Shown here: positions 22,138 to 24,194 of the stretch, piece after piece
Numbering within the stretch: position 1 is the stretch's first letter
How the letters are laid out: each line of letters begins with the position of its first letter
Assembly (NCBI GenBank): GCA_013204185.1
Contig: JABMOI010000266.1
Span: 1 to 42,100, forward strand
From: a bacterium
GTDB lineage: Bacteria; Bacteroidota; Rhodothermia; Rhodothermales; UBA10348
DNA: 42,100 nucleotides
Reading direction: 5' to 3'
Program-made: the position numbers and the translations under genes
Notes under the pieces: model-generated
Database searches by the model: none
Told to the model about the DNA's origin: nothing
What the model saw: only the letters and a program-made list of their open reading frames with translations

Positions 22138-23133
22138 CTACAGTTGGGGGTAAATAAGCCAGATGAGATAAACTGAAAAGGCAATGAGTAAAAACACGCC
22201 ATTGGACCTAGACAAAGCATGTTTTTTTCGGGCTAAAGGATACAAAACTAATGAAAACGCAATCATCACCGGGAAATGGAATCGGATTGATTCTGATTCA
22301 ATCTCCATCGGTTGAATGACAGCGACAAAACCAATTACGAACAAAATGTTTAACATGTTGCTACCCAAGATGTTACCCACGGACATGTCGCTTTCTTTTT
22401 TCAGGGCACACATCAGTGAGGCGGCTAGCTCTGGGAGGCTGGTTCCAATTGCGACAATGGTAAGGCCTACGATTATTGGCGCTATATCAAGTAGTCGTGC
22501 AATGCCCACCGCTGAGTCGACCATCAGCCGGGCTCCAATGGCCAGCGCTGCAATGCCTCCGACAATAAGTAGAATGCGAAAGTAGGGCGCCACGGAAGGG
22601 CTGGTAACGAGGCGCTTAAAAGCGGTATCGGGAACCTCAATTTCTTCTTCTTCGACTTCGCTCGGCGAAGGACGATTTTTGGAGTGACGAATGGAATCGG
22701 TCACTATATAGGCCATAAATGCAACGAGGCCGGCAAGAAGGATGATTCCGTCAACACGAGAAATGAGACCATCCAACGATAAAAGGTAAAAAAGCCCAGT
22801 AACCGCTAACATCATGGGGTACTCTTTACGGAGAGCATCACCATCAAAGGTGAGTGGAGCAATGGCGGCGCTCACTCCCAGAATAAGGGCGATATTACTG
22901 ATATTTGACCCAATAATATTGCCAATCGCCAGACCGTCCTCACCAATAAGAACAGCAAAAAAGTTGAGCAGGAACTCAGGGATTGAGGTACCAAGAGCAA
23001 CGATGGTAAGCCCAATAATCATGGGCCGAATACCAAATCGCTTGGCTACATCTGAAGCACCTTGAACGAGCCAGTCTGCTCCTAAGTAGAGGATGCCTAA
23101 CCCAAGAATAAAAACGATGGAATGGAGCAGCAT
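22138..23133 (-). CDS. CaCA-family Ca2+/Na+ antiporter (YrbG type)
   Basis: A 331-residue inner-membrane cation exchanger with about ten transmembrane helices and the two inverted alpha-repeats of the CaCA family. The first repeat has GTSIPE (48-53) and GNIIGSN (71-77), the second GTSLPE (230-235) and GNILGSN (253-259); these glutamates and asparagines line the ion site. A short acidic cytosolic loop (about 150-172) separates the halves. The ion preference (Ca2+/Na+ or Ca2+/H+) cannot be read. It lies between cytidine deaminase (35-base gap) and the VWA protein (3-base gap). MIDAS sites bind divalent cations, so a link with the VWA protein is conceivable but unproven. Confidence 0.9.
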   Translation of the reverse strand: MLLHSIVFILGLGILYLGADWLVQGASDVAKRFGIRPMIIGLTIVALGTSIPEFLLNFFAVLIGEDGLAIGNIIGSNISNIALILGVSAAIAPLTFDGDALRKEYPMMLAVTGLFYLLSLDGLISRVDGIILLAGLVAFMAYIVTDSIRHSKNRPSPSEVEEEEIEVPDTAFKRLVTSPSVAPYFRILLIVGGIAALAIGARLMVDSAVGIARLLDIAPIIVGLTIVAIGTSLPELAASLMCALKKESDMSVGNILGSNMLNILFVIGFVAVIQPMEIESESIRFHFPVMIAFSLVLYPLARKKHALSRSNGVFLLIAFSVYLIWLIYPQL

Positions 23134-23168
23134 GCGGGAAAAAAATGCAGTGAGCTAAATGCCTTGAA

Positions 23169-23957
23169 CTAAGGGCGTTTCAATATATCGCCAGTAAAAT
23201 GCCCGGGCAGCAACTCTGTTGCTTTCATTGCTTGGGGATTTTCATCGTCAAGGTCCATCCAAACCGTTGCTTTTGGGGCAAGTTCCACTATTACTTGCCG
23301 GCACGCTCCACATGGTGTTCCGCCAGGCAATTTGGGACAGGAAACATAAACATCTGTAACGTCGCCCAATCCATAGGTAATAATGGTAGATAAGGCGTTC
23401 CGCTCCGCGCAGATTATTTGGGACCAGTCTGGATGTTCGACATTTACTCCCTGAACAACCTGGCCCTTGGTCGTGGTGATCGCGCATCCAACAGGAAAAT
23501 TTGATTCTGGGATGAAGGCTGCTTTTGCCGCTTCACGTGCGCAATTCGCTCCATCTGATGCATTTTGAATGTCGCTGGGGAAGGATACAGGCAAAAACAT
23601 GGTGGGGTCGGGATGATGAGCACCCGCAACAACTAGGATTCTAGGCGAGACCAATTCCCACTGATAAGATCCAAGCGCACTCGTGTAAGCCAGCTCTGCT
23701 TCGGTGAAAGGGACCGTGGACACGATTATCGAGAAGTCCTTGCGCTGCAACGCATAAGAAGTCGTGATCGCATTGAGGATTGGAGGGATGGTTAGTTGAA
23801 ACGAAGCATTTTCAACTCGTACGCCCCCAACCAACGCCCCGTCCTCAAGCATAATGACAACCGCTTCCTTTCTACCGGTATACGGGGAATAGGAGCGCGA
23901 GGCAATTCCTTCAGCGTGCACTTTGAGTTGGGAGAGAACTTGTTCAAATATTTCCAT
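23169..23957 (-). CDS. cdd: Two-domain cytidine deaminase, catalytic C-terminal half
   Basis: A 262-residue cytidine deaminase for pyrimidine salvage. The C-terminal half is catalytic: NFPVGCAI, VNVEHP, CAERNAL (zinc ligand Cys183, catalytic Glu185) and PCGACRQ (Cys216, Cys219). The N-terminal half has the same fold signature (SYSPYTGRKEAV, GGVRVENASF) but reads LTIPPILNAI where an active domain has CAE, so it is degenerate. In the two-domain E. coli enzyme the order is reversed (active N-terminal, degenerate C-terminal half with a very similar TLPPL motif). The zinc site here is of the Cys type rather than the E. coli His type. It is the first gene of the antiporter/VWA cluster. Confidence 0.9.
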   Translation of the reverse strand: MEIFEQVLSQLKVHAEGIASRSYSPYTGRKEAVVIMLEDGALVGGVRVENASFQLTIPPILNAITTSYALQRKDFSIIVSTVPFTEAELAYTSALGSYQWELVSPRILVVAGAHHPDPTMFLPVSFPSDIQNASDGANCAREAAKAAFIPESNFPVGCAITTTKGQVVQGVNVEHPDWSQIICAERNALSTIITYGLGDVTDVYVSCPKLPGGTPCGACRQVIVELAPKATVWMDLDDENPQAMKATELLPGHFTGDILKRP

Positions 23958-24098: not shown

Positions 24099-24183
24099 GC
24101 CGGGATGGCGGAATAGGTAGACGCAACGGACTTAAAATCCGTTGAGCAATTTGCTCGTGCGGGTTCGAGTCCCGCTCTCGGTA
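24099..24183 (+). tRNA. tRNA-Leu (anticodon UAA)
   Basis: An 85-base class II tRNA. The acceptor stem GCCGGGA pairs with TCTCGGT (two G-U pairs), with A as discriminator; the 3' CCA is not encoded. The anticodon stem ACGGA/TCCGT encloses the loop CTTAAAA with anticodon TAA at 24133-24135, reading UUA leucine codons. A long variable arm (GAGCAA...TTGCTC) and the T arm GCGGG-TTCGAGT-CCCGC complete the structure. The variable arm and A discriminator agree with leucine identity. Confidence 0.97.
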
Positions 24184-24194
24184 CACTCGAAGAA

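Follow-up and report, generated by a model that had tools for sequence, protein, structure and literature searches.

A class-wide cytidine deaminase with a degenerate domain in front of the active domain

Introduction

How does a cytidine deaminase (CDA) come to carry its dead domain before its active one, and what would such a dead domain be kept for? The question is raised by a gene on the minus strand, at 23169-23957, of a 42,100-nucleotide stretch of bacterial DNA (the window, class Rhodothermia, phylum Bacteroidota). According to the ORF list and the translation the gene, with ATG start and stop codon included, encodes a two-domain CDA of 262 aa, and a search with this protein matched its own genome at one place only, the gene itself.

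The E. coli-type dimeric CDA (D-CDA; TIGR01355; PDB 1ctt, 6k63, 4eg2, 6l08) also has two tandem CDA domains, one of them dead. In E. coli cdd (NC_000913) HAE at 102 and PCGHC at 128 are found in the first half and TLPPLQGAL in the second, whereas in the protein of the window the dead domain is first, the active domain second, and the zinc ligand is Cys instead of His. The reversed order and the Cys-type site, both pointed out in an original prediction made from the sequence of the window, thus hold. The single-domain tetrameric CDA (T-CDA; TIGR01354; PDB 1jtk, 1mq0, 8x6u) shares the Cys-type zinc motif, but it is a single domain of about 15 kDa with all the site roles in one chain, whereas in the 262-aa protein a dead copy is fused and the roles are split between the halves.

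Results

The protein was recognised as a CDA in Pfam, NCBIfam and PDB sequence searches, passing the CDA family profile PF00383 with 69.4 bits against a cut-off of 25. The best stretch for dCMP_cyt_deam_1 was residues 138-233 (2.8e-19 for the whole protein), and that for dCMP_cyt_deam_2 residues 9-82 (4.9e-16 for the whole protein, two stretches). The zinc motif of the family, C/H-x-E and P-C-x2-4-C, is present in the C-terminal half (residues 130-262; 23172-23570, minus strand, as all parts of the gene given below) as CAE at residues 183-185 (23403-23411), which holds a zinc Cys and the catalytic Glu, and as PCGAC with two zinc Cys at residues 215-219 (23301-23315), earlier given as 216-219. 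In the N-terminal half (residues 1-118; 23604-23957) there is no zinc motif, and LTIPPILNAI (residues 55-64; 23766-23795) replaces the CAE region, as had been proposed. Between the halves lies a linker, residues 119-129 (23571-23603), the approximate boundary of which was taken from the secondary structure of the model. On the whole protein TIGR01354, the tetrameric model, reached 120.6 bits (cut-off 113.65), a cut-off which no single place passed in the 164 genomes of the class. The dimeric model TIGR01355 stayed below its cut-off (73.7 against 275 bits).

In an AlphaFold2 model made from 68 aligned sequences both halves have the CDA fold (mean pLDDT 96.7, pTM 0.94), and the N-terminal half keeps it when predicted alone from 14 sequences (pLDDT 90.8, pTM 0.85), so that the proposed two CDA-fold halves are borne out by the model. 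T-CDAs were the best fold matches of both halves, and in sequence, too, the active half matched them best. For the isolated N-terminal half the best Z was 12.3, and E. coli CDA gave Z 10.9, aligned on its active half. Residues 130-260 matched B. subtilis CDA in VIA-align with Z 21.5 and 1.6 Å over 130 residues. The whole chain aligned with E. coli CDA 1ctt in sequence order, model residues 1-238 on 43-294 (VIA-align; Z 19.2, 211 residues, 3.1 Å), so the N-terminal half falls on the E. coli active half and the C-terminal half on the dead one. By this alignment the intrachain arrangement of the predicted fold is the same as in D-CDA, but the extension before the first domain is lacking, residue 1 lying on residue 43 of 1ctt. 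A Foldseek superposition on 1ctt was looser (7.1 Å over 224 columns, TM 0.59), which suggests that the two halves may be rotated relative to each other somewhat differently than in E. coli CDA.

The homologues sharing this order, a search for which had been recommended, amount to 68 distinct sequences, that of the window included. The zinc motif is found in 0/68 N-terminal halves, and C183, E185, P215, C216, C219, N172, E174 and W178 of the C-terminal half are invariant (68/68), so the layout is not due to chance. The first zinc ligand is Cys, and the site a three-Cys site (C183, C216, C219), in every sequence. The ribose-binding N172 and E174 belong to the motif NVEHPDW (residues 172-178; 23424-23444).

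In the tetramer of E. faecium CDA (EfCDA), molecule C contributes Y23, A48 and F50, and molecule D F127 and L132, to the ring of residues around each active site, and the amides of A48 and F50 bind O5' (PMC11007441). The zinc Cys, E57, N44, E46 and F26 are also named for the site (PMC11007441), and we take these to be the site's own residues. Tyr66 of T. brucei CDA has been reported to bind the 5'-OH through its NH (PMC6686228); judged by its spacing to Asn60, it is the same position as EfCDA F50.

By alignment with the PDB sequence (numbering 2 above that of the paper), Y23, A48 and F50 of EfCDA correspond to positions 151, 176 and 178 of the active half, the counterparts of which in the dead half are 26, 51 and 53. 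The dead half has retained them: position 26, in a PYS or PYT motif (Y26; 23880-23882), is Tyr in 56, Phe in 10 and Trp in 2 of the 68 sequences, position 51 is Ala in 56/68, and position 53 is Phe or Tyr in 68/68, the latter two forming part of NASF (residues 50-53; 23799-23810). In the active half Tyr is found at 151 in 2/68 and Ala at 176 in 7/68, and position 178 is always Trp. The active half has Phe at position 154 in 65/68 sequences (Tyr in 3/68) and F254, the equivalent of EfCDA F127, in the C-terminal loop LLPGHF (residues 249-254; 23196-23213) in 68/68; the dead half is without a C-terminal Phe in the 26 rows compared. Compared with T-CDA, the active half has thus lost the Tyr of PYS and the NAS(Y/F) loop and has an invariant Trp instead. 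The E. coli-type enzymes (10 sequences, 8 of them gammaproteobacterial) have the same split of neighbour-supplied residues: Tyr, Ala and Phe/Tyr are each present in 10/10 dead halves, and the active half has Leu, Met or Ile at the Phe/Tyr position and a C-terminal Phe in 10/10. Their first zinc ligand is His (10/10).

Two further positions were conspicuous in the alignment. W178 (23424-23426) stands where single-domain CDAs have Tyr or Phe (31/31 compared), and is expected from the symmetry to point at the dead pocket. R47 of the dead half (23817-23819) is Arg in 66/68 sequences at the place of a ribose-binding Asn, with an acidic residue kept nearby at position 49 (Glu 63, Asp 5); in the E. 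coli dead half the place of the Asn is taken by Tyr (10/10). The Arg may close off the dead pocket or have some other binding role.

A match to the CDA family was found in 152 of the 164 genomes of the class (completeness 90% or more), and the same 12 genomes were without a match by TIGR01354. The CDA is two-domain in 151 of the 152: the match runs across both halves in 147 (in G342 from position 43), and in four others (G341, G360, G361, G366) two domains were recognised by reading the sequences. The sole exception, G033, has a single-domain CDA of 131 aa. Loss of the zinc motif from the N-terminal half was checked in the 68 aligned sequences and by eye in 10 two-domain proteins; the remainder are counted by span only. 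There was one match per genome, except for two in G341, G360, G361 and G366, where they are halves of one frame, and three in G222, which has an E. coli-type gene as well. With about one match per genome, nearly all genomes of the class seem to have no nucleoside CDA besides the dead-first one. G222 carries a dead-first CDA (L054/L135) and an E. coli-type CDA (C4:447028-447744) side by side. In family f14, genus g23 is without a CDA match in 5/5 genomes (G039, G049, G058, G399, G400) and appears to have lost the enzyme. The stretch between the halves is lengthened in some proteins (L154, L155, L157, L160, L161) and short in L156, so the linker varies between lineages.

The whole-genome search with the two-domain profile covered the phylum of the window. 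Among the matches listed for 395 genomes of the phylum, spans across both halves were confined to the class, and matches outside it started at profile position 63 or later. Reading the six least clear genomes outside the class (G072, G139, G311, G319, G434, G471) revealed no second CDA domain. Among these matches, the rest of the phylum has only single-domain CDAs and one E. coli-type enzyme; E. coli-type CDAs occur in 2/247 genomes of the phylum, one of the two belonging to the class. The trait is thus spread through the class and old, and not an oddity of the genome of the window. A scan of genome contigs with a single query sequence gave two loci, both from relatives. None of the 43 matching plasmid records and none of the 12 matching phage records covers 80% of the query, and no two-domain CDA was found at six viral-contig loci, where five frames measure 144-167 aa and a sixth (122 aa) matches part of the active half only.

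The gene next downstream of the CDA gene, at 22138-23133 on the minus strand, encodes a protein of the Na+/Ca2+ exchanger family (Pfam PF01699), the pair spanning 22138-23957. Of 41 distinct loci examined with roughly 1.5 kb of flanking sequence (L001-L030 and eleven of L104-L133), 28 have an exchanger gene behind the CDA gene in the same orientation, and in 24 of these the two frames are separated by at most 108 bases. Besides the window's own, 7 of the 10 neighbour frames tested by Pfam had PF01699. We know of no functional link between CDA and a Na+/Ca2+ exchanger. On its upstream side the CDA gene is closely flanked by a tRNA-Leu (taa) gene on the plus strand (24099-24184).

The origin of the fused pair was addressed with a tree of 103 halves, comprising 26 N-terminal and 26 C-terminal halves (of the 68), 10 of each half of the E. 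coli-type enzymes and 31 of 36 single-domain CDAs. On all columns the dead halves of both enzyme types grouped together with support 97/98, and 82% of quartets joined the dead pair and 17% the N-terminal half with its own C-terminal half. This grouping, like the resemblance of LTIPPILNAI to TLPPLQGAL, speaks for a circular permutation of an E. coli-type CDA, or for loss of the outer halves from a tandem copy of it, by which both halves would derive from E. coli-type halves. It is also what would be expected if a native single-domain CDA had received an E. coli-type dead half at its N-terminus, a chimera that would reconcile the all-column tree of the N-terminal half with the single-domain affinity of the C-terminal half.

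The dead-half group was, however, gone after removal of the active-site columns. Quartets without these columns gave 61.2% own pair, 26.3% dead pair and 12.5% the third arrangement, with 57% of quartets unresolved, whereas the dead pair was kept (60-85%) in 6/6 trials in which as many columns were removed at random; the shift is therefore due to the active-site columns. The halves of the E. coli-type enzyme, used as a control, showed no comparable own-pair pull (30/29/41%). This turn to the own pair argues against both the permutation and the chimera. The likeness of the dead halves is explained by convergent loss and by shared retention of tetramer states (PYS, ENAS-F/Y). As PY(S/T) and ENA(A/S)(F/Y) are also present in single-domain CDAs (31 rows), they are no marker of common descent of the dead halves, which again tells against a chimera.

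Profile comparisons with hhalign pointed in the same direction. The C-terminal half scored 245 against single-domain CDAs and 127 against the E. coli active half on all columns, and 98 and 43, respectively, without the active-site columns; being much nearer to single-domain CDAs, and having Cys rather than His as its first zinc ligand, it is not what a permuted E. coli-type enzyme would lead one to expect. The rarity of E. coli-type CDAs in the phylum counts against the permutation as well. The N-terminal half scored 111 against single-domain CDAs, 83 against its own C-terminal half and 78 against the E. coli dead half on all columns. Without the active-site columns its own C-terminal half came first (67.7 over 50 columns), followed by single-domain CDAs (62.5 over 66) and the E. 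coli dead half (43.2 over 41), an order opposed to the chimera.

AU tests rejected none of the alternative origins tested. Pairing the N-terminal half with its own C-terminal half was unrejected on all columns (p 0.42), and with the active-site columns removed trees holding the dead halves together (p 0.49) or the own pair together (p 0.50) both scored like the free tree. Two results lean somewhat towards the permutation: the tree constrained to unite the two active halves exceeded the free one by 2.3 log units (AU p 0.54), and when quartets were drawn from the active half, the E. coli active half, the single-domain CDAs and the N-terminal half, the two active halves came together slightly more often (31-33%) than the active half and the single-domain CDA (20-25%), the own pair being joined in 41-49%. 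On balance we consider the permutation unlikely and the chimera improbable too. The most probable origin is that a single-domain CDA was duplicated in a separate event, although, given that the AU tests reject nothing and that one set of quartets tends slightly in the opposite direction, this is a preference and not a proof. Of the two origins in the original prediction, the independent duplication is thus favoured and the permutation is not, and the trees of halves that it had called for gave a grouping of dead halves that depends on the active-site columns.

Discussion

By alignment, the dead half keeps the residues which in a tetramer a neighbour donates, and the active half has lost those and keeps the zinc site, the ribose-binding residues and the C-terminal Phe. 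Such complementary losses, each made good by the other half, are characteristic of an obligate pair with one shared site, and their pattern would predict which surfaces meet. The suggestion that the dead half completes a neighbouring active site is therefore well supported by residue conservation and by the comparison with EfCDA (PMC11007441), and the dead half seems to have been retained for this contribution.

We infer that two chains would form a dimer, a pseudo-tetramer with two working zinc sites. To each of these the active C-terminal half would give the zinc, the catalytic Glu and the ribose-binding Phe, Asn and Glu, and the dead N-terminal half, probably that of the partner chain as in E. 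coli, would surround the 5'-OH with its Tyr and its Ala-Ser-Phe loop; the active half of the other chain would give the C-terminal Phe. The gene product is probably a housekeeping cytidine/deoxycytidine deaminase in the form of a fused dead and active pair. It could also be imagined that the N-terminal half serves for regulation or for binding of a nucleotide, a nucleic acid or a protein and is no part of the active site, and the near-invariant R47, which replaces the ribose-binding Asn, might point to a new ligand. What the dead half has kept, however, are the positions which a tetramer neighbour donates in EfCDA (PMC11007441) and which the active half has lost, and we find such a role very unlikely.

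Since the tetramer is symmetric, the obligate pair could give the same particle with either order of the halves: under two-fold symmetry a connection leading from the end of A into the start of B would follow the same path as one leading from the end of B into the start of A, and the order along the chain would be immaterial. A catalytic and a second, structural deaminase subunit also act together in the tRNA deaminase ADAT2/ADAT3, as described (PMC7713142), but these are two separate polypeptides acting on tRNA, and the similarity to the N-terminal half is a remote fold match (7nz7_B, Z 8.6).

We propose that the fused pair would go back to a single duplication, no later than the base of the class, of a Cys-type CDA with one domain, and that complementary decay would then have killed the first copy. 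The event would be separate from that behind E. coli CDA, in which the second copy died. Taken as a whole, the explanation, i.e. a fused dead and active CDA working as a shared-site pseudo-tetramer and derived from a separate duplication with complementary decay, appears likely to us. We also lean, somewhat less firmly, towards the view that half-dead fused CDAs arose at least twice from tetrameric CDAs, in opposite order and with the same residue roles in the dead and in the active half both times.

PF08211 was tried as a mark of a shared dead half and rejected, as it matches 208/296 genomes of the phylum, many of them with a single-domain frame, and 9/14 control genomes, B. subtilis included. 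In annotation, PF08211 should accordingly not be read as a dead-half marker, and it should be noted that TIGR01354 labels the protein of the window a single-domain tetrameric enzyme; the CDA of this class is neither of the textbook types.

With the dead-first CDA, the design known from dimeric CDAs has a variant that extends across the class. The possibility that the order is ordinary for a well-described clade had been raised from the start: ordinary in distribution it is, but no description of an inverted CDA, or of the enzyme of this clade, was found in the open-access literature searched.

The enzyme provides a second case, probably independent, of the change from a homotetramer to a dimer of fused dead and active domains, and it lets one ask which outcomes of such a change are inevitable. 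The identical partition of residues in the two orders provides a clear rule that can be tested. If the two origins are true, nature would have replicated the conversion of a homo-oligomer into an obligate catalytic and pseudo-catalytic pair, and it would be symmetry, not chain order, that sets the outcome.
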